In this document: piece after piece, positions 842 to 52,450 of the stretch
Layout: the number at the start of each line of letters is the position of its first letter
Position numbering within the stretch: position 1 is the stretch's first letter
Origin: Polytrichum commune
Taxonomy: Eukaryota; Streptophyta; Polytrichopsida; Polytrichales; Polytrichaceae
Assembly (NCBI GenBank): GCA_950295325.1
Contig: OX485807.1
Coordinates: 4,466,501 to 4,530,500 of the forward strand
Direction of reading: 5' to 3'
Length of the DNA: 64,000 bases
Translations under genes and position numbers: made by a program
The notes under the pieces: model-generated
Told to the model about the DNA's origin: nothing
The model's input: the letters and a program-made list of their open reading frames with translations, nothing else
Database searches by the model: none

Positions 842-1141
842 TCAATTAGATTCATAAGCCATTGCCTCTGTTGCAACATGTCCACAACTCATATATATAA
901 TTGACTCGTTCTTCGATTCAGAAGAGAGAGAGAGAGACGATTGCTGATAAACTTCAACACGGTTGTTAAAAAATGTATGGTTGAGATGAGGGACGACATT
1001 GCTATTAGTGGAGATTAATCGTTTAATTTCATCTGCTCTTGCCTCTCTATAGGCCTCCAACAATTGCTCCACAAATTGGTTTTGATCACCTTTGAAAAAG
1101 TTGTCAATCCTGCCTTCCCAGAAGTTGAGCAATTTATGCCA
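842..1141 (-). CDS. Hypothetical reading frame, probably an exon or 3' gene end
   Basis: An open frame on the minus strand of about 99 codons begins KWHKLLNFWEGR after an upstream in-frame stop and ends at a TGA at 842. No ATG opens it, so it is either an internal or terminal exon or part of a decayed gene. The middle (EQLLEAYREARADEIKRL) looks like an amphipathic charged helix and the C-terminal third is serine-rich. I recognise no family. Its partial duplicate at the left edge shows that the segment was copied in tandem. An origin in a mobile element is possible but nothing in the sequence shows it. Confidence 0.3.
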   Translation of the reverse strand, partial: WHKLLNFWEGRIDNFFKGDQNQFVEQLLEAYREARADEIKRLISTNSNVVPHLNHTFFNNRVEVYQQSSLSLSSESKNESIIYMSCGHVATEAMAYESN

Positions 1142-1595
1142 TTTTTATGATATCAAAATATACCATACCTTTGTATTTTGTTGCATATTGTATATGCAAC
1201 TAGACTAATCAAATCCAACCAGGTTGAAACTTTTGTGATGACTTGGATGCTCTCACTTTGATAATTGGGTTTGGCGAATTGCCTAAGGGCCACTTCACAC
1301 TCTTGCCAAGAGCCATGACCATGAAATTGTGAGAGCCCAAAGGAGAGTGTCCAAAGGCCGTCCCAACACACCTCCAAAATCATGTAGTGTGGTCATGGGT
1401 CCTCAAGTGTAGTGTGAATAAAATAAAATGAAAATGAAAATGAAAATGAAAAAGAACTTCAGGGTTTAGTTTGTACCCCGACTTGAATAGGGAGCCCGTT
1501 TCTCTATGCCATGTTCATGTTCGACCAAGCGTCACCTTAAGAGTACTCTACCCTCTCGGGAGGTGAGCTCCTTTAGTTTTCGAATAAGTCGTATC

Positions 1596-2178
1596 TACCG
1601 TAGCACCATAGTTGGTTCATGCAAAAATAATTCCCCAAAAAAAACCAAAAATTATAAGCCCAATCAAACGAAAAAGTGAAATTTTGTATTAGAAAAAAAA
1701 ATTTAATGAAAAATTTGGACTCTTCTAAGCTCCAACCACGTTAACGCGCCATAAGAGGCTTTATGCTAACGCGTTAATGGCTCGGCACCCTACTCACGAG
1801 CTCCACACTAATAGGGATAAAAGCACAATCAACTCGTTATTGTTTTGGTGCCATTTCTAACACTCTTCTCACACATGTCAACGTGCAAATACATACAAAA
1901 GACCTAACACATACAATGTGCAAAGACAAACAAGAGCCACACTAAGTAAGGTTAAGGTGGATACTTAGGTTTAAGGCCAAGAAGTTGCCACGAATGTATG
2001 AAAAAAAAACAACCTACTTGTAGTATTGTTGGACCTTACCAAATAAAAGAATTAAATTTTTTTAAATCATAGGACTGATAAAATTTCATGAACTATATTT
2101 TTAGTTGATGAACCTTATTTTTCAAAAAATTAATAAATATCATTTCGAGGTGCACGAACCAGCTATGGTGCTACGGTA
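1596..2178. mobile_element. Unclassified element with 27-bp terminal inverted repeats
   Basis: The 27 bases at 1596-1622 (beginning TACCGTAGCACCATAG) recur in inverse orientation at 2152-2178 with two mismatches. The 530 bases between them have no coding frame. No clean target duplication is visible beside the arms. It abuts the 3' side of the LINE fragment at 2179-3250 and both lie inside the Harbinger-like element. The superfamily is open; a foldback or Mutator-like MITE would fit. Confidence 0.5.
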
Positions 2179-3250
2179 ATATCTAGGGGGCTATATGGGG
2201 GGGTGTGGGGGGGTGTCCATTGGGGGGAGAGGTCTACAGGGGGTTGTTTGTTGTCTAGCTTCCTTTTGTTTAGTATTAGGTGTGTGAGGTATTTGATGGC
2301 AATTTGATGTAGGTGTTTCATAAGTATTTTGATCACGTGTTTGGGCTAGAAGATATTCTTACGGTGGTTGCCCATATATTGGGCGTATTGGAGTTTTAAA
2401 GTTTGTGTGATTTGGGTGTTTGTGATCTTGGGGTCTTTCCAAAATTGGTTGGACAGTTTATGGTTGATTTGGTCATTAGATGTCCATTTGTCTATGTATG
2501 CGAATTTGGATTGGGTTGGTCTTAGTTCCTGGTTCATGTGTTTCTTATTGATGTATGATTGTAGGTTGCGTATAGCACCCATGTGGGAGCGTGTTGGGAC
2601 TCCATTGAACCAGTATGGCGTAGTATGGGCGGTATGTATCTTAGGGGTGCCGGCAGGTTTGTCTAGGAGGGCTCCACTGTTGGCTAATTGATCCGCCATT
2701 TCATTGCATGTTATGCATGTGTGTGCTCTGATTTTTTTAAATTGTGATTTTGTGTGTGGACCAGGTTATATGGTTGACTATGGCGGCGATACATAATTTA
2801 TCAGGGTGGTTATGTTGGGATGATGGGTGTTTTATGTGATTGTGTATTAGGTATATATTATTAAGGCTATATGTAAAGTTGTAGGTATCTTGCATGTGGT
2901 GTTGTGTACCTTGGATTGCTATTAGGATGCCATTTAGTTTGGTTCTTAGGATGTTTTGTAGGCCTGGGAGTCTCTCCGCAATCCGAAGGTTGTTGGCAGG
3001 AGAGTAGACACCTGACCCGGTTGTATTGCCTATGCCATGTTTGTCAGGGGTTATAAAAGATCCATCGGTGTATATGCATTGTTGGGGCTTGAATTTAAGG
3101 GGGTGGGTATTGTGTAGTTCTATTGGTAGGGGTTGAGTTGGGTGGTTACTTTCCATGTGGTGATAATGTGGGGCTTTGTGCCATACGTGTGTGAGTTTTT
3201 CACTGTTTTCTTAGGGGGGGTAACTTGGTGTAGGTGATTCTTGGTAATAA
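2179..3250 (-). mobile_element. LINE fragment with RNase H domain, internally deleted (copy a)
   Basis: On the minus strand the frame shows an RNase H domain: IYTDGSF carries the first catalytic aspartate, GSGVYSP follows, and a later MADQLANSGAL holds the usual final helix. The glutamate expected in the second motif is Lys here (RTKLNG against RAELN in copy b). After NQFWKDP and YAQYMG the sequence jumps straight to the LINE C-terminus (IKYLTHLILNKRKLDNKQ). The zinc-finger and endonuclease region present in copy b, some 600 bases, is therefore deleted. A C-rich stretch at about 2190-2230 (seen as G on the plus strand) follows the coding end. Dead copy. Confidence 0.75.
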
Positions 3251-3565
3251 TATTGTATAGTCCAAGTATGTTGGCCGTGATTGTATTCTGTACACATGAC
3301 AAATAGAATAAATCAACAATTGTGAGCGTTCGAAGTGCCATGGTCTCTTGGTTTTGTGTTAGGCCTACCTCCAAGAGGTGGTTTTTGAAAAAAGTCCAAG
3401 TGACCATGAAACATGATCAATTCCGTGCCATGTAGACTCTACATCCTCCGTTTGTTCCTCAAGCGTAGTGTGAAGCGAACTTGGACCGGCTCCGCCTTTT
3501 TCACCAATGAGTGCTTGAAGTGCAATGGTCACGGGCTCTCAATCTCATGTGTGAAGTGGCCCTAA

Positions 3566-4133
3566 TATCCAATTCTTTTCAAAATCTTGAGCTCCGAAGG
3601 ATGAAACTACCTATAGATCAATCTTTTTTTAGGATTTCATTTGGATCTTCTGAAAGAAGAAAGGGCATAAATGGAACAATACCCGGAGCAGTCTCTGTGG
3701 CAAACCGCAGCATCCTTGTAGCAATCCGCATACAAATAAACAATTATCACGCTCAAGTATGCCTAAATGAAACAATTGATCCATTAGTTGCACAAATCCA
3801 TTAGTTGCAAAAATCCACAAAAAACAATTGATATTAGTTGCAACCATTTCTTGAGTTGAAGAACAAATAAGCACATGCAATCCATATCATTCGTACCTTT
3901 ATCTATCTATCCCAAGAACATATGAGAGAGACCAAAGAGAGCTAACATCCACCGGGGTCCAACGTGAATGAGAGATGCTTCATTTTTGGGCATAAGCTAA
4001 GTTCATTACCAAGAGCATAAGTCTAAATCTACATACACCATAATAAATTGAACATGAAAAGTTTGTCCAACATCCCGACAAATCTATGTATGATATTCTG
4101 TTGACATAGCACAAGAATCACATGTTATTCCGA
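3566..4133. other. Intergenic, nothing recognised
   Basis: Open frames occur on both strands here but they mirror each other, lack family motifs and show no splice context. I see no gene. Confidence 0.5.
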
Positions 4134-4355
4134 CTACACTAAATGATGTATTTGTCACTAATTTAAGCATTGACAATGTTTCGTTTCATCAATGTTAGGA
4201 TGACGAATAAACCAAACCTTGTTTCAAAAATTGGCATGGATTTCATCCAACTTTCATTCATCCATGACAACACTTGTAAATCAGAGTAGTCTCATTAGAA
4301 GAGTGACCGTAGTGACACAAAATATCTTATAATACTAAATACAATATTTAGTGCA
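4134..4355. mobile_element. CTACACTAA-type MITE, copy 1
   Basis: It begins CTACACTAAATGATGTATTT and ends AATACAATATTTAGTG, inverted versions of each other. The interior shares CATCCATGACAACA-like and TAGGATGACGAAT-like blocks with the copy at 8098-8484. No coding capacity. Confidence 0.55.
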
Positions 4356-5622
4356 TGTCTTTGCCACTATGAAATAGATTTCAGGTATTCGAATCTACTA
4401 GTGTAATAGATTCGGATACTTGAAATCTACCTTATAGTGGCTGATGGCAACAACCATATATATATATCCACTATTTAAATGAGTTTACAGTAAATATGTT
4501 GGATGATCGTGATTAGATGTCCTGCTCTTTGAAGTAGGCTCCCATTAATCTTTCATGAGGTAAGAACAATATCAACTATACAAAAAAAAAAAAAAAAAAA
4601 AAAAACAATATCTACTTCCTTTCATTGATACAAACCCATAAGTAGCATCCACAATCCCAAATTAGTCTTGTGAAATTGAGCTAGGAAGATTAACACAAAT
4701 GTATGTTCATGGTGGCTGGGGCGAAACAACCCGTACATTGGTTTCTAATTTAATTGGTCTTAATTAGGATTAATCAGAATTAACTATACTTAATTACATT
4801 GAATCACACTTAATTAGTTTAAATGTGTATGGAAACTTTGTGAAAGTAGAAGGTATTAACTAAAAGATTATAATACTGAACATACTAAAAATAAAACCAC
4901 TAAATTTAGTTCCATTTTAGAATGACAAAGACCCTTGCAATGACAAGTCACAAAAATCATAACCTCGGTGCTAATGAGGGTTTTATAATATTTTTGACTT
5001 CCTAGTTATTTACATGCTTTATTGGCGATTTCATTTTGAAAATGAAATCCCAGTCAATCGCTTATTTACTCAATGGAAGTGAACATATATATTGGATTTT
5101 GGACCTTGAAGGTGAAATGCACTCAATATGGGATTTGTGGATAAGTGGTCTTCAAGAATGCAAGGGCAATGGTTTTTTTGAAGTCGGGCAGGCGGGCAGC
5201 AGTTTTCGATCGGATCCAAAAAATTAAAAAATTTGGGCGAGCGGCTACCCTTGCCTGAATCTGCCTCCCCTATAAGTTCGATGGGGGTACTTTAGCGTCC
5301 CCCCTCAAAAACTGTGGTATGCAGAGGTCTGTTTATATTCCCAGCTTTACTGGAGTGTCAAGAATGAGGGGTTCTGTGTATGTATTCTTGATGAGTTTGA
5401 GGTTGAGAAGATTCAAGTGACCAGTAACTTGTTGATAATTTTAGTTTATGGTGTTTCACACATTGAACTGATTTGAGTTTGTACTAGTGGCATTTGTACT
5501 TCAACTGCCTCCTTCTCAGGCAAGGGAGGTTTCACATAAAAATTGGTCAGTCTTTTACAATTGCATTTATTTATTTATTTTAATCTACAACTGGAATGTT
5601 TCATAAACTTATATATGAATTA
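4356..5622. other. AT-rich intergenic DNA with poly(A)24
   Basis: It contains a TATA-repeat near 4466, a run of 24 A at 4582-4605 and a TTAATTA-rich stretch at about 4740-4820. The poly(A) could be the tail of a retrocopy, but no matching body was found on either side. No gene recognised. Confidence 0.5.
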
Positions 5623-7020: not shown

Positions 7021-9580
7021 TTAATAGCTCCTTGGTATATTTTCATCAACACAAATATTCGCGTGCATATCTCTATACTCACTAGAAAGATGGTCCATAT
7101 CTAATCCACAAATAAAGCAACTATTGGAATTTTTCGCAAGGCATTTGTTTACGTGGGCCTCCAGAAGTGCGTTGGTGGTGGAGTTGGCGTTTAAAGATAT
7201 ATGACAAATTGGACACTGCGAAAATTCCGAGCTTCCAGAAGGTACTAATGTTCGGCCACCAACTCCTGCCAGAGAGGAATTGTTTCCTTGTAATTGAGAG
7301 ATTATTTCCTCAGTTTTTTTTTGTACATCTTCCCAAGTCTTCCACAATGCATGTCGAAGATCAAGCTTGGCCTTAAACTCCTCCTCCAACTGCAAACCAT
7401 CTTCACCCTGGAAGCTCATGAATGCTTTCGATGTTGAGAATGAACGCCAAAAACACAAATTTGCGTGGAATTGTTTGGCGTTTTGTAAGCTTTTTGTAAT
7501 GCGGCGTGAACAAGTCAGGTGCTCCTTCAATATGTAGGGCAATGTTTCTGTGAACAACTCAAAGAAAGCAACCCCCACGACCAAAGACGAGTCCTGGCCT
7601 TCATTGATGACCTTCAGATCTCGTAGCCATTTCAGCAAAAGTTCAATGCACTCGCGAACACCTCGTGATACAGTCAAGGTCTTTGGATAGACACCTTCTG
7701 GAGATCGGTGATCAAAGTGATAACAAATCTTTGGGTAGGTGCTGGATTTTTTCATGAATTTCCAAAAATCGGAACTGTTTTGCACTTTCACTGGCGCTAG
7801 ATCATCCTCGTCCAATTTGGCAAGGAGGTCCTTCTTGAGATTCTCCAATTTTCTCTGATAAGCGTCTACGCTGCCATTTGCAGTGTACTGCAAATAAATG
7901 GGTTTCCATATCAGTAACATTGTAAACAAACAGACTACTTATCAGCATGTTTCTTAACATAAGTACTTGTTAAAATGGTTTCAAGTGGAATAAATCATTC
8001 TTAAAATTGGGAGGGGCAGGTTTTTGCTCCACACCCCATGGTAGTTGTCGTCAACTGAAACCCTTGCCAGTTTAATGCCTAAGATTCAACCAATCTACTA
8101 CACTAAACACTGTATTAGTGTCACCAATTCTATTTGTCTTGCTCAATACTAAGTTGTAAACCGCCCATGTAGTGTCACTAACGCTAAGTGTAAACCTAAC
8201 CTTATTTGTCATTCCTTGATATATAAAAAAGAAAAAAAGGTATGATAGATTTCCAATGTTGCAATTATTGTCACTTACTAAGTGATTTTTCATCTAAATT
8301 TCAATCATCCATGACAATAGTTCATAACGCTTATGTTAGGATGCAGAACATATTAAACTTTGTTTCAATAAGAAGTAAGTTGGATGACAGTACTTGTAAA
8401 CTTATTCATAAGAAGTTTCATCAGAAAAGTTACCACAAGTGACATAAAAAAATACTACGTGACTAAATGCAATGTTTAGTGTAGTACTGGTAGCCTAGTT
8501 TCCTGTCCAAATTTAGTTGGTAATTCTGATCAATATCTGGCAAAGTACTGTAAGTTGAAAAAGGAAAATAATCCACATGAGACCTTCATATTATAATCTG
8601 TGGATGTATGAAAAGTGTTTACTTGAAGAATAAGGTGGATTTGACAGGAACACAGTAATCTTGTGTCCAAGTACAACCGTGCAAATTTCTTGATTAAACT
8701 CAAGTTAGGAACACATGAAAACATTTCAAGGTTGACAGTGGACCAATATGATGATTGAATATTTATGATCACTTTTGAGTGCACAAAGACAAGTCAGTTG
8801 TAAGTGGTGCAAATACTCTCCATTTATCATGCCATTACCCACATGGAGCTTTGGGCAAATTACCACCTAAGGGGATGCCATGAAGTAGCGAGGACAAAGC
8901 CTGGTGATTAGAGCCCCATTCACTAGGTTTTGTCCATTTTATCACATGTTTCTTTATTTTGTAAATTGTCCAAATTTTTATACAACTTGGTGCTAGCAAG
9001 TTATCAAGTATCATAGTCCATATGTGAACTCGAAACGGGTTTACGAAGCAGGGCTATGGGAGAAGTGTACCAAGTGTTTAATAAATATCTCTAGTGGTCA
9101 ACAAATTCCATGCACATGGGACAACATGCAATGAACTTGAATTGAAAACCAAGTTAAAATGTTTACCTCTTTAGGCTTTTCATGATTCTGACGCATTTGA
9201 ATGTTAAGGTTCAAGAGCTGCATCATCAAAGCGATTTCTTTGATGTCTTGAACAATTCTTTCCTTTGGCAATGGCAAAATCTTCCAAAGTTGAAAAGCCT
9301 TCCCACTCAGAGCCTTCTCCAACGCCTCAGCTTTCAACTTGATATTTTTCAAAAGTAGTTGATTGTGGCTCAATTGTATATCTAGATTAGGCACTTGCTC
9401 CAAAGTGTCCAATATGGTCTTTATGCATACCAAATTTGTGTTGTTAATACTATCCTTTGTCATGGTTGGTATGCGCTTTAAGATTGTCGCAATTTGCTTC
9501 CAAATAGCCGGCAAAGCAGCAAGAGCTACAGGTACTACTATTTGTAATGCACCCAATGCTAGAGTAACTGGATCACCCAT
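7021..9580 (-). CDS. Two-exon gene: RPW8-like helical N-terminus plus tandem CCHC zinc fingers
   Basis: Exon 1 runs 9580-9167 (ATG MGDPVTLALGALQIVV, 138 codons) and ends at a good donor (AAAGAG|GTAAAC). Exon 2 starts after TTTATTTGCAG at 7887 and ends at a TAA at 7021. Both joins are phase 0, giving 426 residues. Residues 1-37 form a hydrophobic helix, and residues 45-130 form further helices whose spacing resembles the RPW8 domain of plant immune proteins (a membrane-acting four-helix bundle). A coiled middle (about 140-360) is unrecognised. The C-terminus has two fingers, C-x2-C-x16-H-x3-C at 363-387 and C-x2-C-x14-H-x3-C at 395-417; HVNKCL resembles UBZ4-type ubiquitin-binding fingers. The RPW8 link is inference. 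A MITE lies in the intron. Exon structure is well supported; function is unknown. Confidence 0.7.
8098..8484. mobile_element. CTACACTAA-type MITE, copy 3, in the intron of the zinc-finger gene
   Basis: The ends are CTACACTAAACACTG and its inverse CAATGTTTAGTGTAG. The interior matches the copy at 4134-4355 (CATCCATGACAA, TTAGGATG, TTTGTTTCAA blocks in the same order). It lies wholly between the donor at 9166 and the acceptor at 7888. Non-coding. Confidence 0.65.
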
Positions 9581-10662
9581 CGTAAAATCCCGTAATCAAA
9601 TATTTATGGAATAGATTGCTTTGATTTGCAGCCTACACCACATTAAATATGTGTCAGTCAGTTAGCCAACCGTATGAGTGTCAAATATATAATCAAGCTA
9701 ACATGATAACACTTCCATGAATATTGGTCCATTTCTATCATCCCCATGCCATTGTGGATATTCTTGTTCATTGGTCGGATTCTAACAATACCACAACGAT
9801 GAAAAACTGTAACCTATACAACCTTCATGAGAGAAGCTAACTTGAGACAAATGTCAATAGAAATAAGAATTTAAACCTACGAATCGGCAAAAAAAATTGT
9901 TGAAATACTGAGAAATGCAGAAACTGTAGGCGCACAAACATTTATGGAGAGTTCAAAGTGTTCATTGCAAGGTAAAGCTTACATTATTGTTTTGTTGAGC
10001 TGTGATATCCCCAGTAGGTGTAAATTAATCAAATAAAAAAACCAGGCAAAAGCCCTTACAAAGTGCCCACATGGGGCCAGCCATAGCCATATAGCCTCAG
10101 CCAGAACGAAACTAATGCTCCAGAAGGGCCCACCTCAGCACTTGCCACAAGCTTGTGGATGTCGGCTTCATTCTTTGTTGAGCCAATGTAATTTACTGCC
10201 GACGATGCTTTATAAGCTAAGGTTTAAAATTTATCGGCCCCGCAGTTTTGTCACCTCAATGACATTGTTCTTATCATCAAACCTAATTGCACATATCAGT
10301 GTAGCTTACATGGGTCACATAGAAGGCTTCAAAACCACAGATCTACTCAAACATAGTCACCACCCCACCACTCAGAGAAACACAATTTCGAGATGACAAA
10401 AAGTACACAACAGTCAAATTGTAACTCATGTAATGAATAATTCAGATTACAATGTCTTCCTCTCTCTACTCACTTTATGGATGACAACCAACAGCCACTC
10501 GCTTTGCTTTTCTTGAACAACTCAAAACTGACCCACCTACTTACTTGGGCACTAAATCCCTGCATTCCAAGACAAGAAGCCTGAACCACTAGAACATACT
10601 CCAATCACACTTTCATTAAATCTTTCGAAGAACCAGAAATGGAGGTACATAAAGATTTTTAG
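9581..10662. other. Upstream region of the zinc-finger gene; no clear gene
   Basis: It should hold the promoter and 5' UTR of the minus-strand gene starting at 9580. Around 10080-10230 the minus strand has a coding-like stretch (ASSAVNYIGSTKNEADIHKL) that I cannot place. No other feature recognised. Confidence 0.35.
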
Positions 10663-11110
10663 TCACCGTGTATATTTCAAAGTCTCTTCGAGTATGCAAA
10701 CTGCCTCCTCGGAGGTATCAAAGAAATGCTCGAGTTCTCCAATATTGACCAGGACTGTCAATTTGAACCCATACTCCAATCTCGTCGTCTTTCTGGTATC
10801 TGAACACATATCTTTCTGATATCTGTTCTTAACTACAAGCCATGCCATACACCAAGTCTCACAACATAGGAGTGCGATCAAGAAGCGTTACCACGTAAGG
10901 CCCACATACCTCGAAGCAAACAATTGTAGACTTATTGTTGAATCTCCTCCTTCCATAAAACTCTACACGACCTGGCCAACTTAAGGTGAAGGGTGGCGTG
11001 TCACAGATAGCTATGGGGTATTGATGAAACTGGAGAAGGACAAAACTCAAACCCGGGTCGAGAGATGAGAAAAAACTTACAACAAAAGTGAGGATTGAAG
11101 AAGCAAGGCA
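10663..11110 (-). CDS. Possible 3' exons of an unrecognised gene
   Basis: On the minus strand, one segment reads CDTPPFTLSWPGRVEFYGRR and on to STIVCFE, stopping at a donor-like GAG|GTATGT near 10911. A second segment reads LVVKNRYQKDMCSDTRKT through EEAVCILEETLKYTR and a stop at 10663, preceded by an acceptor-like TTGTAG. The composition is coding-like and the joins are plausible, but the phase was not proven and I recognise no family. The 5' end is not found; a hAT element lies just upstream at 11250. Confidence 0.3.
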
Positions 11111-11249
11111 TGAACGCAAAGTATGCAGACATTTTTGTGGTGACAGCCTAACAATACCAGCATGCATGTTTATATTATAGTATTTTGATTCTAGGTATCT
11201 GTATGAGTGAAAATGTGTATAAACAATCCTGACACAGCATTGGCAGGTT

Positions 11250-11475
11250 CTATGATCGGGGAAAACCGGCAGTAAGTTACAAATGAACCGGTTGAGTTTG
11301 AGAAATAACCGGTTGAAGTTCAAGACTGCAGGAAAATTACCAATCATTTTAGAGGGATTTATAGAATATACCCCAATTTAATAAAGCAAAACCGGAGGAT
11401 GTCAACACGTAACCGGTTGGACTTGCAAACACTAGAATCTCAACCGGTTTTGTCCAAAATTCTCCCCAATCACTG
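11250..11475 (+). mobile_element. Non-autonomous hAT element (226 bp), copy 1
   Basis: Starts CTATGATCGGGGAAAACCGG and ends CCCCAATCACTG. The 8 bases GGCAGGTT stand directly outside both ends (11242-11249 and 11476-11483), a perfect hAT-type target duplication. Several ACCGGTT palindromes lie inside. It is in the opposite orientation to the copy at 11789-11993, and the two share most of their length. Confidence 0.85.
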
Positions 11476-11774
11476 GGCAGGTTTAAGCTGAAAAAATCGG
11501 GTGAAGCAGTGTACTGATATTGTTAGAATGGAATGTTTAATATCAATTCTTTAGGTGCTTTTTATGGGTGAATACATTATTTAATTACAGTACCGACTGA
11601 AAAACTTTACCCACGTCCAGACGTGCAGGCATACAGACACAATTATTAGTCTGCAACTTATAATTAGACAATGGTCAGACCTTTCTATGGCACCTTCTTC
11701 TTCCTTTTTTGATTTGATCCTAATGTAGTTCCAGTCACCCGTTGACTTGTTGGAGGAAGTTTGGGAGGCGTAAG

Positions 11775-12486
11775 GGCCACTTCACATCAGTGATTGGGAA
11801 GATTTTTGGGCATAGTCGGTTGAGATCCTAGTGTTTGCAAGTCCAACCGGGTTACATGTTGACATCCTTCGGTTTTCTTTTATTAAGTTGGGGTATATTC
11901 TATAAATTCTTCTAAAATGATCGGTAATTTTCCTGCAATCTTCAACTTCAACCGGTTCATCTGTAACTAACTGCCAGTTCTCCCCGATCATAGCTTCACA
12001 CACGAGCCAAGAGTTGTGACCATGAAATCGTGAGAGCTCAAAAGAAAGTGTCCAAAGATTGTCCCAACACACCTCCAAAATCATGTATTGTGGGCACAAA
12101 CCCTCAAGTGAGGTGTGAAGTCATATGTGATCAGGCCCTCAATCAAATGCTATTTCAATAAATTTTTATTCGTGCGGGACCTCACGCATGATAAAAAAGA
12201 ATAAATCAACGGTTGTGAGCCTTCGGAGTGCCATGGTCTCCCGGTTCTGTGTTAGGCCTACCTCCAAGAGGGAATTTTTGAAAATAATCCAAGTGACCAT
12301 GAAACATGATCCATTTGATGCCATGTAGAAATCCATGTAGACATTACATCCATCTTGCAATCACATAGTCCGTTGGTCCCTTATGCGTAGTGTGAAGCAA
12401 ACTTGGACCAGCTCTGTCTTTTCCACCAATGAGAGTGCTTGAAGTGTAATGGTCACGGGCTCTCAGTCTCGTGTGTGAAGTGGCCC
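11775..12486. mobile_element. PIF/Harbinger-like non-autonomous element, second copy
   Basis: Ends are GGGCCACTTCACA at the left and TGTGTGAAGTGGCCC at the right. TAA flanks the left end; the right flank reads AAA, probably a decayed duplication. It carries a hAT insertion at 11789-11993 only 14 bases inside its left end. Without that insertion it is about 0.5 kb, and it aligns with both outer parts of the element at 1287-3562. Confidence 0.8.
11789..11993 (-). mobile_element. Non-autonomous hAT element (205 bp), copy 2, nested in Harbinger element
   Basis: Starts CAGTGATTGGGAAG and ends TCCCCGATCATAG. The flanks CTTCACAT (11781-11788) and CTTCACAC (11994-12001) are an 8-bp target duplication with one change, and they fall within the terminal repeat of the host Harbinger element. 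The hAT is therefore the younger insertion. Confidence 0.88.
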
Positions 12487-12573
12487 AAACTGTAGTGCAG
12501 ACTGCAGACTGGAATCTTACTATGCATGACACAATGTACAGACACAATGCAGGCCTATATAAAGTGTGTACAC

Positions 12574-12942
12574 CAATGTTCGGACTGGTATATGTATAGG
12601 TGAATGCATGGTATCGATAAATGGTATCAAAGAATCTACTCGGTTAGTATCCAAATTGTAATATCAGTCAAATATAAATATCGGTGAGTATATCATCATG
12701 ATAAAAGAATAATTTTTGTATATCCAAGTTATTGCTTGGGTCAATACTATTTGAAGCCATAAGTTTGATATTAGGGTGATTTTATCTAGGTATAAAATAG
12801 GTTTTTGAATGGTATATAGACCCAAATGGTATTAGGAAAAAAAAATCTTAACAATCCATACCCTATTGGTATCAAAAAATGAAAAATCATTGTTATAGGT
12901 ACCTGGATGAAATCAAAAAAAGATGATATCATTTCAACATTG
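12574..12942. mobile_element. CAATGTTGG-type non-coding element, copy 1
   Basis: Starts CAATGTTCGGACTGG and ends CAACATTG, inverted ends. The interior has the GAATGCATGGTATC and GGGTCAATACTATTTGAA blocks that recur at 19107-19449 and 55165-55640. No clear target duplication. Many GGTATC/GGTATTA repeats lie within. Confidence 0.6.
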
Positions 12943-13545
12943 GCGTTCATCCTAGAGTATATGAATAACATGATTATCGTGCTGCCATAAATGGTTCATA
13001 AGAAGTATTCTAACCTTTCAAAAAAACCTTCATCAAACGTAACTTAAGTTTGAAATTACCAAAAAAAATTTAAAAAAATTCTTCATTCTTTCAAAACAAA
13101 TTTTGTCCCGTCAAACAACATAGCATACTTCAACAAGCTAAGCTTATACTATGGCACTGAGAATAAAACATGGAGATTTGGGATCAAAACGTTCAAATCG
13201 TTAGCATGCTATAGCTTTCAATCCGAATATGAGTTCAACATCTACAATGGTTGTTCATTTGGCACTGTAGAGCATGGAGCTCGTACTCAATATTAGAAAA
13301 ATGAACAAGGTCCCACCTTTTAGTAATGTTATGAGAGTTTCAACATTGCATCTAATTTCTCTACATGTGTGTTGTCAGTGGCATCATTGCCATGGCAAGA
13401 TGTATACATGGTGAACCCAGTTTGTAGAAAAGGCCGCCAAACCTCCATATTCCAATGTGCATTTGCCACATGTGTCAACACGTCTTAGATCATCCATTCA
13501 TTACCATCTCCATAACATGGTTCACTCAAACTCCTAGTCATGGTA
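12943..13545. other. Intergenic, nothing recognised
   Basis: AT-rich, with no frame of note on either strand. Confidence 0.5.
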
Positions 13546-13726
13546 CAGTGGTATAGTCCTACCTCTTTAAGAGACACTCGATAATACGACAACCTCGATA
13601 TAATGACACAAATTATGTAAACTATACTTTTTAGTTAGAATCCACCTCTATAATACGATTGTCATATTGTTAATACGACACTCCCGGACTCCCAGAATGT
13701 CATGTTATAGAGGTAATAAAACCATA
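13546..13726. mobile_element. Pogo/Lemi-like MITE
   Basis: The left end CAGTGGTATAGTCCTACCTC and the right end, read inverted as TATGGTTTTATTACCTCTAT, resemble the ACCTCTATAA-rich ends of plant pogo-like (Tc1/mariner) MITEs. A TA precedes the left end. Repeats of the CTCGATAATACGA type lie inside and recur near 16880. The exact right edge is uncertain. Confidence 0.5.
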
Positions 13727-14262
13727 TATGGCGGGTAGGCCACATGTATAAGTACATAGTTAATATGGAATTTATGTAACTTTCACACATGAAATGTGGA
13801 TAAAAGAAAATCTTAATGTAAAACAATGTTAAAATATGGGAACTAAGGGAACTAGGTTCTCTATCTCAAAACCTAATCAAAGAGACTCATTAGCTTGTGT
13901 CTTTTTCGCAACAATTTTTCACTTAAACCTTAAACCAAGGTGCACAATTTGTTTTCAATCATTTGGAACTTAATTTTAATCAGATTGCTTTGATTTGCAT
14001 ATCGCTAGAAGGTTGTTGAGATTGTGCTTCATTTGGTGGTAGTTTTACTTAATTATGAATTGTATTGGTAGAGTTATGACCGTTTGAAGGTTGGTTGAAT
14101 TTCAAAAGTTGATAGTAAAGAAGTTGATTGACCTCCATGTATTGTAAAAGTGGCATACGTCAACATCATGCTCAGTTGTTAGTTGCATTGTTTATGAACC
14201 ACCCATTAGATTTTACTCTTGCATACATAATGAAGTTGCAAGCCATATTGGAGAAGCTTGAG
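13727..14262. other. Intergenic, nothing recognised
   Basis: No gene or repeat with clear ends was found before the pyrimidine-rich 3' edge of the LINE at about 14263. Confidence 0.45.
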
Positions 14263-32261: not shown

Positions 32262-32883
32262 CTGTGTATGCTCAAATCATCACATTCCAGGAAATGACGT
32301 TACGATTTGTCAATCTATCCAAAGCTTGCCTTGCCTCCTTGATGCTCCCACACGTGGCATACATCTTAAGGAGAGCCGTCCCTACGCGCACATCTGACTC
32401 AAGTTTATCATGTCTGATATGTAACTTACATGAACTTCTTTGCCCCATTCTAGAGCTAATGGGCTCGCACATGCACTCAGGATGCTCAAGTGATTTCATT
32501 TGGCTATGCCCTTCTTGTCGCATTTGATTGAAAGTTTCCATTGCGTCTTTAGCATGATTGTGCTGACCATAATCTCCAATCATGATGGTCCAAATTTAGA
32601 CATTCTTCTGCACAAGATCATCAAATGCGCGACGTGCATCCTGCAATCTCCCACATCTAATATACACACTCAGTAGGTTGTTTGCCACTAATATGTTTTG
32701 CTCCATTCTACTCCTGATGATGCAGTCATGAATTTGCTTGGCTGCCACAAGGTGTCTCTTCTTGAAGTACCACATTAAAATTTCGACAAAGGTGTACGAG
32801 TCCATAGTATTATTGCCTTGTTGAATACGACCCTCCTGAATGGCGATGGCTTCACTGATGGCAGTTGTACTTTCTATGTGCAT
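32262..32883 (-). pseudogene. PLS-class pentatricopeptide repeat (PPR) gene remnant
   Basis: Read on the minus strand it has consecutive PPR units: DSYTFVEIL, then LVAAKQIHDCIIRSRMEQN, ILVANNLLSVYIRCGRLQDA, MIGDYGQHNHAKDAMETFNQ, and SDVRVGTALLKMYATCGSI followed by NVISWNVMI. This order is typical of PLS-class PPR proteins, which bind organelle RNA and often direct C-to-U editing. A stop separates the third and fourth pieces, and the spacing in the next unit is short. No N-terminal targeting sequence and no E or DYW domain are present. It is a fragment of about 200 residues against the usual 500 to 900, so a broken gene copy next to the PMI1-like gene. Confidence 0.8.
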
Positions 32884-33999: not shown

Positions 34000-36900
34000 C
34001 TAAGTGTACAAGGCCCTTGGGACGATGCGATTTGCATCACGAATACGCATCACTGGCACTATTTCTTTTCCCAAAGAAGGCACCAGGTTCATAGGGACAG
34101 TAGAGGAGTTATAGGGAACCAGTGCAAGCTGCGGGGGATTGTCAACAAAGACTTCATCATCCAAACCCCATTCTTCCATGAGAGCTTTGGTTTCCTCATC
34201 TTCGAGCAGCTTCGCCCGTGTTCTGCTGCGCATTGCTTGTGTCGCTTTTTGAAGCTCTGCCTCAGCTATTTCCATGATAGATGCCATTTCTGTGTCCTCT
34301 TCACTCCCCCAACCTGATACATCGTTGGGACATGACCACCATGTTAATGATGGTAGAAACATACACAAGACTTTGAAGACTGGAGGCTTCACCTTCCCAA
34401 TTCTTCCAAACCCAGTGATTGAACTGGTTGAACTAGAGAGAGAAATTGGAGATTTCCTTGTAAAACTTGTTCATATTCTTGCAGTGGTGTGATTAGGGTT
34501 CACTAGAGCAACCTCGATATGCTTTCAAATGAGGTTACATCTTGCTGCATGATGTCATCCATTCTGGCACTCAAAACGCGTGAATCCTCCGAAAAAAGAG
34601 ATTCGTCAGTGTTGCAACTTTGTAAATGGTAGCAAGCTTTCTTGCGCGTGGGCTTCTAAATTATGAGCACCTGCATCATAGATGGATTGCTACAGTAATA
34701 TACTCCACCATAGTGACATGGTTATAACCATCCATCACTCCACTAAGCTTCCCAGAATGTAACTTTTACAATTTCGTAGACAAGAAACTGACCTTCATTG
34801 GCAAAGTCTTCAGTCGTCAATGTTTGCTCCTGGATGGCTTTTCCTCCTGCTTCAACATTTGGCTTGCCCTGCATCCCTTGCATGGTGAACTTCATAGACT
34901 CGGGTAAGAGGAAGTTCAGATCCAGACCGCATTCAATAAGTGCCTCCTGTTCAAACTGCTGGAGGCGTAAGGCCCGTGGTGAATCCTCTCCGCTTTCAGA
35001 ATCATCTTCCAGGGAGGCTACGTCATCCCCCAGAAGGCTTAAAAATTCCCCAGCCACAATGTCCAGATCATCATCATCGACAGTGGCATCCTTATCATTG
35101 TGATTACTGTCCTTTTGTAATATGGATGATTGCACAACAACTTTGGACATCTGTTCTTCTTTCACTTTGAATTCCTCCAATACCACGTTTATCTCCTTCT
35201 CGTCCTCTTTGTGAATCGCTATGTACCCTTCTGGACGATTTATAGGGTGCCCTTGCGTGGTGCCAATTGGCAAACCTACTGGCACTGAGCTCAGAATCTC
35301 CTCCAAGTTCTTCACGATTGCTTCACTCGACTGAGGATCCTGTGCCTCAACAAAATCTTCACTTTCCTCTTGCTCTTTCTCTTGCTCTTGCTCCTCCGGT
35401 CGGGCTTTGGTCTCATGTTGTTCCATTTTGTGGTCAGACATGGGCTTGACATCGTCCAAAATTTGTTCAGCCGTAATTTGGTTGAGTTCATTCGTAACTG
35501 CTTCCGCATTGCTCTTTTGCAGGGTCTTGCCACTATGCACATCGTCGGCTTGTACAGCGGCCTCTGACTCAATAACCACATCCACGCCAACCTGAGCTCG
35601 CAACACTTCACAATCTGCACAACAAGTTCGTGCATCCCAAGTGAGAAAATCAACTTCATAAATTGCAATAAACCTACAACAACAACAAAGTCGAGAAGAA
35701 ACATATACACATACTAGACATGTGCAGTATACATTCCACAGGTGTGAAGTACATACAGACTCTGCAAATGTTACACATGTAGGTCTCGCCATAGCCAGAA
35801 AGGTGACGAAGTGCTCGTAACAAAAATTCTAGGTGCAACTTATTCCAAAAAATAAAGTTCATCATAGGAGAGGAGGTGATTCAGTAGACAAAACACACTA
35901 TCGAACTCCCTCATGCCACCAACACGGTAAGTACATAGTTATGACTGCTTACCTTCTATTGAATCTTCCTCCTCCTGAGTGTCTGACAGACCTTCGACAG
36001 TGTCTTCTTCAGCTTTAGGGTCATCATAGTCCACAGGAGCCACCAAATCCGAAATAGTACTCGTTTCATGCCCCTGATGGACCACTGTAAAATCAGCGTA
36101 CGCACCTTCATCGTCATAGGAACTGTCTGTGTTAGAATAGTCCGTGTCTTCATGAAATGTAATAGGTAGAATTGGTGCACGCCCCTGGTTAGCAGCAGAT
36201 TGGCCGAATGAAAGCCTTTTCTGGATTTCGGGAGAAGGATTAAAAGAAGGACGTGTTTGGCCCTTTTGGTTGCTCTTTCTGGCGCTGATGGGACCATCGT
36301 TGAGGCTGAACTCATCGAGGCTAAGATGCTCCATCCTCATGTACTCTCCATCCACAGGCATTTCAGACATTGCAGGAGAGAATTCGAAATTGGATGCACG
36401 CCCACCCAGCGTTACTGCCTGAGGAGAATTTGGCATACTAGTGAAAGACCGCAATGGCCTCGACATTGGGGAATCGCTGAACCTTGCACTCGACAAGCTG
36501 CTTACTGGTTGGGAATCTTTGTTCAAAAGCTGGAACCCAAATGTCACAATGAGTGTGCCTCCTTTCGCCTTCCCTGTAAGCTTGAAGCTTGTAGTCCAGC
36601 TATGGTCACTCTCATCGTCAGACTTCTCCTCTGTGGTGCCGGGGAGCAGCCGGCTGAGGTCCAGTCTGTGTTTTCCAAGGACAAGCTCGTCAACATCCAA
36701 CGCAACCACAGCAAGGTCGAAATTCTTGGGCATGTATTTCATGCCATGGGATTCACTCCTGGAGCCATACACGGTAGATTTCAGTTTCAGAGTCTCCTCA
36801 AATTCGGCTAAGCCTTGGTACACACGGGATGGCGTGGTTTGTGCTTCCGAGTCTTTTCGTTTCCATTGGACCGACAGTCGAAGTCCGCTCATTGCAGCCG

Positions 36901-38338
36901 GAAGGTTCTCAATTCCATGTACATGCACAATGAACATGCAATTGTATTTTTGCTGGCCGATGTGAGAGAACACTCGAAACGGCTTCCACTTCCACAAGCT
37001 CTTCTTCTCCTTGGGTGCCTCAAGCTTCTTGCTAAACTGCAGATTGTCCTCCAGCCATGCCGGGAAATTGGTCACTTCTGCCAAATTCTTCTCAAACCCT
37101 TGAGAATGCCATGGCTGCAAACTACGCTCCTGCACCGGAGGCTCCAAGCTGTCTCCATCGATATCAAGTCTGTACGTCGAAGCTTTCCTTTCAGACTCAT
37201 ATGATGACCCCGGCAAAGACGTAGACAAAACCCGTGACGGAATTGGTGGTCTCTTTTGATGAGACCTCAATATAGTAGCTGCTGAGGAAAGAGCCAGATG
37301 TGTTATCCCTCCTGGTTTGTAAGAATCACTAACCCCACGGGGTGACACTGTGAGCTCCGGCCTCGAAAGCTGGTAAGGATATTTCGAGATATTATCCAGT
37401 TGAGCATTCCTCTCATAGCCATTTCCAGATTCTTCGATCCTGCTCAAGTAGCGGGACTGAACTTCCTCCATCGGATAGCCAAGGTTGAGAATCCCCTCAC
37501 TTAACCTACTTCGAGGACTTCGAGAGATGGGCACATCACCCCTTCGGCCTCCAAGTCGAGGAGTTCCAATTTCCTCTGATCTTCTACCCTCGAGGTAAGG
37601 AGAAGGTGGAGCTTCTTCACTTCTTCGAGCACCCAAATACGGAGAAGGTGGAGCTTCACCTCTTTGTGCACCAAGGTAAGGAGAAATTGAACCTTGGCCT
37701 CTTCGGCCAACAACATGGTGAGCATCTTCACTTCTCTGAGCACCCAAGTAGGGAGACTTTGGTTCAGAATTTCTCATGGCACCGAGGTATGGAGACTTAG
37801 GCTCAATCAATGGTGGCCGACCATCCCCATCCCCCCTTCTGCTTCCTGCCCTGCCACCAAGGTAAGGGCTTCTAGGCTCTTCGCTACCGCTACCACCACT
37901 TAGGCTGACAATCACCGGAGTTCTAGGTGGTTCATTCCTGCTGCCTACCAGCCCACCGAGATATGGCGATGGTGGACCACCTCTCCTGCCACCGAGGTGT
38001 GGTGATTGGGGCTTTGATGAGCTCCTCCCATAGCTGCCAAGGCTGGGTGACTGTGGCTCTTCGGACCGGCTGTCTCTTTTGCTGCCGAGGTAAGGTGATG
38101 GAGGTTGTGCTGCTATACCACCGAGGTAAGGTGACACTGGCTCCTGTCCCCTCGGCCCTGACACGCTGCCGAGATATGGCGAGGATGGAGTTTCTTTACT
38201 TGAGGATCGACCATGGTTCGGCCCTGGCCCTGTCCTGTAGAGAGCTTGGCTGAGCGCCTCCAGCTCCTTCAGCAGCTGCCCACCTGTTGTGTCATCTCGC
38301 CGCCCCATCGCCGGAGAAAGTGGTGTTGTCTTTCTCAT
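34000..38338 (-). CDS. PMI1: PMI1/PMIR-family protein with NT-C2 domain (chloroplast photorelocation)
   Basis: PMI1-family proteins are plasma-membrane and actin-linked factors for blue-light chloroplast and nuclear movement. Exon 1 (38338-35953) starts MRKTTPLSPAMGRRDD. LLKELEALSQALYRT at 22-36 is the family's N-terminal signature. Residues 53-264 are a lineage-specific SPYLG repeat. Residues 447-605 are the NT-C2 domain (WKPFRVFSHIGQQKY, NLPAAMSGLRLSVQW, FEETLKLKSTVY, GKAKGGTLIVTFGFQLL). Donor GAAG|GTAAGC. Exon 2 (35614-34793) joins in phase 1 and is acidic (VAGEFLSLLGDD). Exon 3 (from 34313) has AELQKATQAMRSRTRAKLLE, ALMEEWGLDDE and SLGKEIVPVMRIRD, then a stop at 34000. That gives 1,173 residues, but the family's last part is missing or spliced to further exons. 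Confidence 0.92.
37547..38182 (-). repeat. SPYLG peptide repeat array in the PMI1-like N-terminus
   Basis: About twelve clear copies of S-P-[YHS]-L-[GE], usually followed by G/A/S and then a basic stretch, lie at residues 53-250, with degenerate TP versions up to 264. Spacing varies from 10 to 30 residues, so it is an interspersed motif array rather than a strict tandem. Each motif is a potential proline-directed phosphorylation site. Confidence 0.9.
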
Positions 38339-41576: not shown

Positions 41577-42604
41577 GATTACAGTGAATAATTACACCAG
41601 TTGGTCAAGAATTATAACCCAAGACAAGGTTACTTGAGGCAACGGTTGGTATGCTGGACAAGATGGAAATTTTTATTTTTTTAAATGTCTCAAGTTGGAG
41701 TTCTTCGTGGGTCAAGTTTCTTTTCCAAGGGTTTGAAGTTGCCCAAGAAACTCGACCTTCACAAAACTCCCCTAGCATAAAGTGTTGCCACATAGGTAAC
41801 CATGTCATTTTTCATTCATGCTTGGAATTCTCCACTAGAGAAGTCTTGGTTGTAGTGAAAACCCTAGCTAGTGAAGAACTCATTTTGTATCAATCGTATT
41901 GCTCCATTCCCCTAAGATTCTTGACTAGTGCATTTCTTCACCCTAGTCCAATTCAGCCCTTACTATTCGGAGTTGGACCATGCTATGATTGTTTGTGTGA
42001 GATGTCTAATAATTTTACTCAATGAAGTCATTCATGATCAATAATCTTCAAACAACGTATGTGATTTTTGTTTGGTAGAGATTGAAACCTATGACCAGAC
42101 TTTGTAACATCACGTAATTCAAAATAGTTTGTGAAACTAAACATCATAAATGGTGTAGTGTGACTAATACTAATTTGTTGATATTTGTAAATATTCAGCA
42201 TTAATTTTTCAAATTTGATATTTTTTGGAATATTGGACTAGACTAGTCACATAAATAAGCTATTGCAATAAATAATAAAGAAGAACATTGGTGTCTATTT
42301 TGATTGGCATTGTAAACAATAATCTCTGCAATAAGATACACACATGCATATCAGTCTTCATGTGTTAGTATTGGTGGCATAACAACGGTGGCAGAAGCCC
42401 ACATAGTGAAAATGCAAGTAACAATCATTGAGACACATCATTCACTCTAAAATCATTCATTCAAATAGTCCACCCTAATTTGATGGCAATTTATTTAAGT
42501 ACCCACACTAAAGAGAATAAGAACATATCATATAAAGATTATCTAAATGTATATAACTCAAGAGTGATGATTGTGGCTCCAAAGATTACTCTTTATTGAA
42601 TTGT
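41577..42604. other. Intergenic, nothing recognised
   Basis: One open stretch on the plus strand (41651-42025) lacks motifs and has no splice context. Confidence 0.45.
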
Positions 42605-42920
42605 ATATATGTAAATCTCGATAAATTCTCAAAATCCGGATTTTTTGGTTGCTTCAGTTTTGTGGGCGGATCCATCGATACACTTCCAATATGCCTGAAT
42701 TTCATGGGAGATATGTGACTCCTCAATGCTTACTTGAGTGTTATGTTATTAAAATATGATGGAAACATTGAGATATCTATTCATTTGATGTTATATCTAT
42801 ATAATCTATATAACAACGTGTTAAAAAATGAACACATGCACATTCGATTGGAGGATCTTACGAAGGAATTTAACATGTTGTAACTTTGGACTTGGACTTG
42901 TTCTAGTTTTACTTAATAAA
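42605..42920 (+). repeat. Dispersed repeat family B, copy 1
   Basis: The blocks GGATCCATCGATACACT, then TTTCATGGGAGATATG, and at the end ACTTTGGACTTGGACTTG recur at 47313-47650 (inverse) and 55995-56355. No terminal inverted repeat or coding frame seen. Confidence 0.75.
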
Positions 42921-43164
42921 TATTAGTTTGTGCTCAAAAATTTGTGTTGTCCTTTGTCCTTCCCTTTCGCCCTCCAACATGAACTAGAAAGTTGCAACAT
43001 CCGTGCAAAAGAATATTTTATTTAAAATAATAAAGCTCACACTATAGAGAAATAAGAAAGGAATGTCGGTATGAAAAGGCTACATTGGCTAACCACTAAC
43101 CCAAAGCCCGTGTTGTGGGTGGACCAAATTTATAGTAGGTGAGGATTGTATGGTGCCCTTCATT

Positions 43165-43700
43165 AGAACTTAGGGGGAGGGGGGGGGGGATTCATGTGTT
43201 TTGAGTTTGCGATTATTTAGGTCTAAACATGAAAGGTATAAAATTAATTTTGGTAATGGATGAGAATTTTGATAGTATTTGAAGGTCAAGTAGGTGTTGA
43301 ACCAATGGATTGTGAATGGGGCCTTTGACTCTGAGTATGAGGATGATAAGGGAGGAGGAAGTGCATTCCATGCCGAGTGTTGTAGTCGAGTTGAGAGAGT
43401 TGTAGTCGAGTTGTATTTGGATCACTTGTTGAGCTTATGGGGGAGAAACAATCATTGCAATATGTAAATTTAATGAATTATATTTGGGCAGTTGGGGAGG
43501 AGTTAAAAGGGGTGTAGAGGGGGCACCTAGTACACAAAGAGTATACGAGCAAAGGTGGGATAAACAATGGCATCGAAGAACATGAAATGTACACATCATG
43601 GTAGATTTGGCTAATTCAATGGTTGATCTTAAATGGACGCCTATATTTGAGTAGTGCATGGTTGAGTGTGAATTTAAGAACGGACACCAAAAAGACACAT
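43165..43700 (-). mobile_element. LINE fragment, endonuclease end (copy f)
   Basis: Minus-strand pieces YTLCVLGAPS and, in another frame, FIKFTYCNDCFSP and TIKILIHYQN align with LCKLGAP, VQFNEFTDCHD and NIKILMKN of copy b. A run of 11 C (plus-strand G, 43179-43189) follows where the coding end is expected. Strongly decayed, with at least one frame change. Confidence 0.62.
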
Positions 43701-44317
43701 GTTGTAAAAAGATCAGAGCACATGCTCAGAATTTGCTAAACATTCTAGATAAAATAATCAACATACTTGGAGAGACCTATATGATCAGTAAATAACTCAA
43801 AGAATCTTCACTTCGGACAATGAATAAGATACTCACAGAGCTCCAAAAATTATGAGGAAAGTGGCTATGAACTCGATTTGGATTTGCTACCCATCGCACA
43901 CTAATTGCGTGCTTTCGTATCATACAAGAAGGCCCGTTGAAGACCCGCTTACCTTAGTAGCCACGAAGGAACTGTGGGAGAGAAGAAAGAGAAAAGCTGT
44001 AGGAATCTTGTATAAAAATGTGGGCTTATTATGTGGGTGGTTTGAGTCACAAGCCATACTTATGACATGGTTCTGGCATGACAGCTTTCAAGTGCTCAAT
44101 TAATGAAACTCATACAGTTTATGAGCTAGATGTGAGTCCCAATCACTTGGGCTGTCATCAGCTTCATGATTGTCCAGGGAAGATAGCTGGATATAATGTT
44201 ATTGATGCTTTTAATATCAACCTTGAATAAAATAGAATAAATTGATCATATAGGCACAAGTTCTAGTTGTGTTAACTTAGAGTGATGTTATATTTTTTAG
44301 CACAATGTACTCCAATC
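43701..44317. other. Intergenic, nothing recognised
   Basis: The open stretch at 43852-44103 on the plus strand has no recognised motif. Confidence 0.4.
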
Positions 44318-44977
44318 CTATGTTCGGGGAAAACCGACGGCTAGTTCATTATCAGCCGATGGATTTCCCCTCATGGCCGGTCCAAATTTCCAACCATCGG
44401 ATGGCAATCCGACTGTAATTTCAATCCTCCGGCAATTAGCCGATGGACCAGAAAGTGTCCCGGAAATGTAGCCGATTCTTCTTGCGAGTTACTGGATTTC
44501 AGCCGGAGCATCCAAAGCGCTATTTGTCTGGGGCATCTGATGATGCACTTGAGGAAGTACCCTAAACCTTAAACTTTTTGAATTATGCAACCTTTTCATG
44601 ATCAAATCCAATTGCTTCTATGAAGAATTGGGGGACCCTTGGCCTTCAAGCGGTGAAGGCATTGCTAGGTTCAATTCCTGCCAAGGATATTAACTCTTCA
44701 AATTTAAAGTTTTGAACATGCCTTTCTTTTCACTTATTCAAGATTTTGTACTAAGAAATGATTTCTAATAACTTTTCATACATTTTTTTAAACAATTAGT
44801 GCCGTTATGAATTCCATTTAATCGAATATTGGCCAATGAAAATATGAAAATATAGGCAATTGGCCGATTGATTTTACAAAAGACCGGCTCTTGCCGATGT
44901 GAATTGGAAAAAATCTGACCCTTCGTAGCAACTACCGGCAATTAGCCACTAAGGCTTCAAAAACTTCCCGAACTTTG
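44318..44977 (+). mobile_element. Non-autonomous hAT element (660 bp)
   Basis: Starts CTATGTTCGGGGAAAACCGA and ends CTTCCCGAACTTTG. CTCCAATC flanks both ends exactly (44310-44317 and 44978-44985). The interior is rich in CCGGCAATTAGCC-type motifs and contains GCTAGGTTCAATTCCTGCC, which also occurs, inverted and diverged, in the coding relative at 48603-49842. No transposase. Confidence 0.87.
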
Positions 44978-44999
44978 CTCCAATCTCATCATCTACACA

Positions 45000-45564
45000 T
45001 AGTTTTTTGGTGTTTGTTCTTGACTATAAGCTTTGCCATGTACCACTTAAATTTAAGTGTCTAATTAAGAGAGTGGCCACAAAAGGCATGCCACATGAGG
45101 TCCACATACTTTATGATATGAAATGTCATTGAAAGGAGCATGTTTATTCCATAAAGGTGGTCAAACTTATTTCTATTACAAGTTTGATAGAGTTTATTAT
45201 AGGCTACTTATGAGCCAAGTAAAAAGAATTGCCCTAGGGAGTGGACTCTTCATACCACATATGAACTATGCTTTGAACATGCTCATGGATCTACTCCAAC
45301 ATCCAAATTTAGAAAAAATGTATTTTCATTAGTGCCCCAACTTGAGAACTTTAACTTTGTAACGGTTGGATCTTCCAATATTTTGTATCCATGAATATGA
45401 TGAAAATTTTGGTCATTGGATAGAATACATGATTCCTGATGGATGTCACTCCTTGGTCGATGCAATTGTAACTTATTAAAGTTGTTTGCTTATGCACGGC
45501 CCCTCAACTTGCCTTTGTACCATGGGAATTTGTTAGAGACTCCTCCTATTATTACTTCTCCCAT
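45000..45564. other. Intergenic, nothing recognised
   Basis: Short frames on both strands lack motifs. It leads into the long hairpin at 45565. Confidence 0.4.
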
Positions 45565-45813: not shown

Positions 45814-45958
45814 CTTTTTATGAGAACAAAGAATCGATTTTAAACTAGTAGCTTTTGCAGCATCTCATTGGAATTGATGTACTATAACTTTTAAGTTATC
45901 TAGAATTACTCTAATGTGGGACCATCTATAATAGGTGAAGGTTCAAGCTCATTTTATA

Positions 45959-46356: not shown

Positions 46357-46429
46357 GTAGTCTATGTGAAATCCAATCATCTTTGCATATACCTTGGCTA
46401 AAATGTCATCTGCTATAGAGTCAAAATTC

Positions 46430-47275: not shown

Positions 47276-47312
47276 TATCATTTCATTGAATTGACATATA
47301 AGTAAAATTGGA

Positions 47313-49842: not shown

Positions 49843-49850
49843 GGTTGCAT

Positions 49851-52448: not shown

Positions 52449-52450
52449 TA

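Follow-up and report, generated by a model that had tools for sequence, protein, structure and literature searches.

What kind of protein carries two CCHC zinc fingers at one end and a strongly hydrophobic stretch at the other, and is encoded by a gene with only one other copy found in its genome? The gene in question lies in a 64,000-nucleotide stretch of Polytrichum commune DNA (C5:4466501-4530500; hereafter the window), taken from a genome of 408 Mb with seven chromosome-sized contigs (77.9, 70.3, 59.2, 59.1, 52.9, 44.7, and 42.1 Mb) and the smaller C8 (0.15 Mb). An initial annotation had proposed a new architecture, namely an immune-type RPW8 domain joined to fingers that may read ubiquitin. 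The ubiquitin half of this proposal finds support in finger 1 and is likely for finger 2, whereas the RPW8 half is not established; what is new is the arrangement around a known finger type. Our leading explanation, to which we give not quite an even chance, is a lineage-restricted protein-coding gene whose product is most likely a ubiquitin-reading adaptor with a hydrophobic N-terminus, an uncharacterised middle region, and two CCHC fingers of UBZ4 type, clearly so for the first and probably for the second.

Gene Structure and Coding Character

The gene occupies two exons on the minus strand, begins with an ATG at 9580, and encodes a product of 426 amino acids (Table 1). The gene model put forward previously (ATG, phase-0 GT-AG intron, stop) is borne out by the coordinates, by codon usage, and by a second copy in which the splice sites are kept; the positions 9166 and 7888 given earlier for the junction are the first and last bases of the intron. 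Scored against the codon usage of other long open reading frames of the same genome, exon 1 reaches 0.140 and exon 2 reaches 0.118 in frame, in each case the highest value of the six frames. Both exceed 2,000 of 2,000 same-length draws (maxima of 0.135 for exon 1 and 0.061 for exon 2), taken from window positions 42500-58000, a region assumed to be intergenic and unchecked for gene content.

Table 1. Features of the two-exon gene, with positions numbered from the first base of the window.
Feature	Position	Strand	Description
Exon 1	9580..9167	-	138 codons; hydrophobic N-terminus (MGDPVTLALGAL...) and remaining N-terminal region; coding-like codon usage
Intron	9166..7888	-	GT..AG, phase 0; contains terminal-inverted-repeat element
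Exon 2	7887..7021	-	288 codons and stop; middle region (~220 aa), then two C-terminal fingers; coding-like codon usage
Finger 1	7141..7215	-	CPIC-x16-HVNKC, UBZ4-like; C363/C366/H383/C387 (CX2CX16HX3C)
Finger 2	7051..7119	-	CFIC-x14-HANIC; C395/C398/H413/C417 (CX2CX14HX3C)
Divergence hot spot 1	9201..9350	-	approximately codons 77-127; 82.7% DNA identity between copies vs. 96.2% in intron; Fisher p=5.7e-9 (post hoc window)
Divergence hot spot 2	7101..7250	-	finger 1 region; 85.9% identity; Fisher p=2.9e-6 vs. intron (post hoc window)

A genome search with exon 1 at E<=10 recovered the two copies of the gene and one further row (E 5.7), and a search with the middle region recovered the two copies and one further row (E 4.9), the extra rows being apparently due to chance. 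A wider gene family in the genome was considered and rejected, as exon 1 and the middle region match the two copies only. A viral origin was likewise rejected: four stretches matched a pattern, and tblastn found no relative among them.

The intron houses an interspersed, MITE-like element (window 8096-8486) with 21-nt terminal inverted repeats that are 90% complementary. Very many copies of this element occur in the genome (it accounts for 42 of the 44 matches listed, with 40 of 5,453 candidates scored). Because it is present in both copies of the gene, the element predates their duplication.

The C-Terminal Fingers

The two C-terminal CCHC fingers described in the initial annotation are present, and all of their putative zinc ligands could be located (residues 363-417). 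Ligands with both the CX2C and HX3C spacings are found in each finger of the window copy and in finger 1 only of the other copy. For comparison with UBZ4, a profile was assembled from five fingers (one from Rad18, two from Pol kappa, and two from the SNM1-like gene L022), the members of which score 16.7-39.5 bits when left out; a reduced profile of Rad18 and Pol kappa alone gives 14.8-25.6 bits for its left-out members. Each finger was shuffled 2,000 times with all Cys and His held in place. Finger 1 obtains 22.7 bits on the five-member profile (0/2,000 shuffles) and 10.6 bits on the reduced one (8/2,000), so that, by profile comparison, it is clearly UBZ4-like, as had been suspected. Its counterpart in the other copy reaches 9.9 bits (18/2,000) and 3.3 bits (187/2,000), respectively.

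Finger 2 scores 20.1 bits on the five-member profile (0/2,000), a value that is partly circular because the SNM1-like fingers in that profile were found via finger 2. On the reduced profile, its score drops to 0.7 bits, a value reached by 809 of 2,000 shuffles, and it shows no similarity to Rad18 and Pol kappa past the ligands. When the finger tail was used to search the genome at E<=10, it returned itself, its own copy, and then L022 (E 0.09, 40% over 30 residues), the last of these via finger 2. This was the one non-self match in the genome, and it aligns finger to finger with equal spacing; the L022 fingers themselves score 22.0 and 13.6 bits on the Rad18 and Pol kappa profile (0/2,000 each). 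The case for finger 2 is that the single further match carries paired UBZ4-like fingers and lines up with the tail finger against finger, by which finger 2 is probably UBZ4-like too, if less independently so than finger 1. L022 (C5:22882274) is an SNM1-like gene whose two UBZ4-like fingers precede a SAM domain (SAM_1, E 2.7e-7).

The resemblance to the UBZ4 fingers of Rad18, Pol kappa, and the SNM1-like protein extends over the CCHC ligands, the CX2C knuckle, the HX3C helix end, and a hydrophobic residue past the last Cys, and the 14-residue spacing of finger 2 equals that of the Pol kappa and L022 fingers. The pattern [E/D]xHxNxC[L/V] is common to both fingers and L022. Finger 1 departs from these comparators in having 16 residues between knuckle and His, and both fingers differ from Rad18 and Pol kappa at the H+2 position, which is Asp in those two proteins and Asn here and in both L022 fingers. 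The setting also differs from that of known UBZ4 proteins, as the fingers sit on an otherwise unmatched protein.

A Pfam UBZ match was absent: Pfam-A yielded just weak, unrelated zinc models for the fingers, and the L022 fingers are likewise without a UBZ match. A PDB search with the fingers gave no match. Hints of exocyst similarity were rejected as being at chance level (Sec15_C, E 0.042; EXO84, E 0.95 for exon 1).

Ubiquitin binding by the fingers is plausible. In the adaptor that we tentatively favour, the fingers would dock on ubiquitin carried by a client, and the N-terminal part would direct the protein to a membrane or draw it into an oligomer. Speaking for this reading are the codon usage and open frame of both exons, the start, splice sites, and 390 codons preserved in the other copy, the scores of finger 1, the L022 match of the finger tail with its shared [E/D]xHxNxC[L/V] pattern, and the N-terminal hydropathy. 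Counted against it are the score of finger 2 on the reduced profile, the Asn at H+2, the weak finger 1 and lost finger 2 of the other copy, the near equality of dN and dS, and the lack of a Pfam UBZ match.

The N-Terminal Region and RPW8 Domains

The N-terminus reaches a Kyte-Doolittle hydropathy maximum of 2.27 over residues 5-23, compared with 1.44-1.61 at the N-termini of three RPW8-type proteins from this genome; prolines at positions 17 and 24 break the stretch. The strong hydrophobicity of the first helix proposed earlier is borne out (2.27 over 19 residues).

The likeness of this region to RPW8 did not survive profile comparison. The Pfam RPW8 model (PF05659) matches neither exon 1 nor the full protein at E<=10, and no other Pfam model matches exon 1 at this threshold, at which the HMMER filters remove most matches above ~0.1; bundles of the HeLo type, MLKL, and Rx_N were rejected on the same search of exon 1, so that the profile search suggested earlier against HeLo and RPW8 came back empty. 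Elsewhere in the genome, the Pfam RPW8 model is found in ten places with 30.5-41.1 bits. A profile built from eight RPW8 domains of the same genome (A3) scores exon 1 at 0.6 bits (367/2,000 shuffles) and the other copy at 2.4 bits (106/2,000), compared with 30.8-43.4 bits in the same test across RPW8 subfamilies. A five-group profile gives 3.1 and 4.2 bits. Profile-profile comparison of exon 1 with the own-genome RPW8 domains in hhalign returned 0.7%, against 97% for a positive control, the divergent RPW8-only protein at C2:4429862. Searches of exon 1 by phmmer with MANPD and two small RPW8 sequences gave about zero, and the A3-invariant CxxxC, WL, and DA residues have no obvious counterpart in exon 1 when aligned by eye. 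By Pfam, own-genome profile, and hhalign, then, the predicted domain is not RPW8. No relative emerged among PDB sequences, where the best E values were 0.083 for the whole protein and 0.51 for exon 1.

That the protein lacks a nucleotide-binding domain, as the initial annotation stated, is confirmed: Pfam finds no NB-ARC in it, and the 126 NB-ARC matches listed for the genome (126 scored of 466 candidates) all lie outside the window. The NLR repertoire of this genome is large, with at least 126 NB-ARC matches among those scored, and RPW8-type NLR genes are present; several NB-ARC genes have a kinase-like frame upstream, as judged by eye. These NLR classes suggest a bryophyte, probably a moss.

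Compared with the RPW8/CC domains of plant NLRs (PF05659, PF18052), the N-terminal region is alike in its MxDP start, its length (138 vs. 133-136 aa), and a weak similarity to the MADPI subfamily. It is unlike them in that the profile match, the NB-ARC, and the family-invariant residues are missing here, and in the prolines of its first hydrophobic stretch. RPW8-like domains do exist outside NLR frames in the same genome. The frames at C2:4429862 (L074, C2:4428500-4431000) and C2:4420143 (L075, C2:4419000-4421000) are small neighbours of 255 and 209 aa in which the N-terminal part is RPW8-like and an NB-ARC was not seen; L074 reaches 14.5 bits with Pfam RPW8, below the cut-off. Unlike exon 1, L074 fits the genome RPW8 profile (the 97% control above), and CCHC fingers were unseen by eye in the L074 and L075 frames.

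Residual Similarity to MADPI-Type NLRs

Two NLRs of the genome, at C6:12155708 and C6:13035068, start with MADPI, and a profile of these two sequences gives exon 1 a score of 16.9 bits that no shuffle reached (0/20,000 plain, 0/5,000 hydropathy-keeping), although several profiles were tried and the best one is favoured by selection. The other copy scores 11.3 bits on this profile (8/20,000 plain, 2/5,000 hydropathy-keeping). BLASTP of exon 1 aligns two stretches with E values of 4e-4 and 0.001; the best (27-58 to 102-133) is out of register, and only the other one (73-132 to 82-135) falls in register. In global alignment with MADPIV, exon 1 scores 41 (shuffles: -39.6 +/- 13.1), as against -5 for the other copy, a value that 7 of 1,000 shuffles reach; with MANPD, 4/1,000 shuffles attain the global score of exon 1 and 664/1,000 its local score.

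In phmmer searches, MADPIS finds exon 1 with 14.3 bits, and the best of 177,635 PDB sequences with 14.1 bits (the filters being on for PDB and off for exon 1). MADPIV finds exon 1 with 11.0 bits, a score exceeded by 11 of the 12 PDB sequences listed. Besides the gene's two copies, none of 1,746 control windows, many of them possibly non-coding frames, reaches exon 1 with either MADPI domain, locally or globally; for the other copy against MADPIV, 8 windows do so locally (two being the gene itself) and 18 globally. In a genome search with the MADPIS domain, exon 1 was not among the 13 matches at E<=10. Taken as a lead, the MADPI-type signal points weakly to a diverged CC domain, to which a distant relation is possible.

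This lead bears on an unlikely alternative to the adaptor, in which the protein would be a non-NLR immune executor composed of a strongly diverged NLR-type CC/RPW8 N-terminus (of the MADPI, possibly the MAEPL, kind), the middle region, and a ubiquitin-reading tail, such that ubiquitination of a client or loss of a guard frees the N-terminus to act on a membrane. Besides the MADPI profile, BLASTP, and MADPIS phmmer scores, its MGDPV start resembles the MADPI, MANPD, and MADPG starts of RPW8-type proteins of the same genome, and two coding hot spots diverge more than the intron between the gene copies. The start also resembles the five letters after which the published MAEPL motif is named; CC domains of non-flowering plants need this motif to cause cell death (PMC11218826). 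When compared by eye, MGDPV shares with the motif an acidic residue, a Pro, and a hydrophobic residue at positions 3-5; MAEPL-type CC domains, however, sit on NLRs (PMC11218826), whereas the gene here is without an NLR body. The executor is further weakened by the Pfam, whole-family, five-group, and hhalign results, with a true divergent member recovered in the last of these, by the absence of a phmmer signal for MANPD and the two small RPW8 sequences, and by the missing counterparts of CxxxC, WL, and DA. The top local match is moreover out of register, exon 1 is missing from the MADPIS genome matches, and the best profile is one picked from several. We consider it distinctly unlikely that an NLR-type membrane-acting N-terminus is joined here directly to tandem UBZ4 readers, without a nucleotide-binding switch, as a ubiquitin-gated executor of immunity or cell death.

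Were residues 1-138 nevertheless of the CC/RPW8 type, the protein would represent a membrane executor gated by ubiquitin and not by a nucleotide switch. If they are not, the locus still offers a two-copy orphan gene for the study of UBZ4-like fingers beyond DNA repair. No combination of RPW8 with UBZ4 or another ubiquitin-binding zinc finger was found in the literature, which says little, as most subscription papers lie outside the search; a similarly limited search found nothing that combined UBZ4 zinc fingers with plants and Arabidopsis.

A Possible Link to DNA Repair

UBZ4 fingers are best known from DNA repair, and they would be in unfamiliar surroundings as the ubiquitin-reading tail of a protein that is hydrophobic and lineage-specific. 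The product could instead be a lineage-specific adaptor in DNA-damage or ubiquitin signalling, drawn from the SNM1/Rad18-type UBZ4 world and fitted with an unrelated N-terminal domain. We regard this as unlikely, even though the nearest fingers found in the genome belong to the SNM1-like gene L022: Pfam finds no nuclease, helicase, SAM, or other repair domain in the protein, and so hydrophobic an N-terminus would be unusual in a nuclear repair factor. UBZ4 fingers, with their CCHC ligands, occur in various DNA-repair proteins (PMC4267625), which is consistent with such an origin of the tail. The adaptor with a hydrophobic N-terminus remains our preferred reading.

The Second Copy and Its Divergence

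The only other copy found by genome search lies at C5:4425893-4423434, 50 kb off and in the same orientation. Its ATG and splice sites are intact, and 390 codons align with no indel, despite 79 substitutions; a frame shift and then a stop follow finger 1, and finger 2 is lost. DNA homology between the copies ends at window position 7101, within finger 2. The copies are 90.6% identical across exon 1 and 96.2% across the intron; in exon 2, taken as far as the first gap, 40 of 756 bases differ (94.7% identity), a figure that drops to 89.8% if the part past the end of homology is counted.

The differences comprise 61 nonsynonymous changes at ~920 sites, 18 synonymous changes at ~250 sites, and 49 changes at 1276 intron sites. 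Over the 390 codons, dN (0.069) and dS (0.076) are about equal, which gives no demonstration of purifying selection. The nonsynonymous and synonymous rates both exceed that of the intron (p=0.004 and p=0.027), and the nonsynonymous rate of exon 2 alone gives p=0.07. Divergence peaks in two hot spots, one in exon 1 and one around finger 1 (Table 1), the windows of which were chosen post hoc with the identity profile already known. Diversifying selection may lie behind these hot spots, as may conversion from a copy that has diverged; because the synonymous rate is also elevated, the excess is explained equally well by short conversion tracts or by a third, diverged copy.

That both copies are drifting remnants of a decaying orphan gene whose protein function is gone is quite improbable: dN close to dS, the loss of finger 2 in the other copy, and the lack of any other relative found in the genome for exon 1 or the middle region would fit, but the window copy is open across 426 codons with coding-like codon usage, and two exon hot spots that diverge more than the intron are not predicted by drift alone.

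The duplicated block is larger than the gene, pairing window 7101-14247 with C5:4423414-4430024. Its identity is ~95% in the gene core and lower upstream, where the blocks that extend as far as 14247 are 86.0% and 87.7% identical and 150-base windows, gapped, range from 79% to 98%. Matches at 866-4714 are possibly repeats, since one such place also matches 11994-12489. Elsewhere in the window, many SPYLG repeats accompany an NT-C2 domain (E 1.3e-18) in an open frame of 799 aa (35939-38338), and a short frame at 32272-32583 gives a PPR repeat match (E 1.4e-6).
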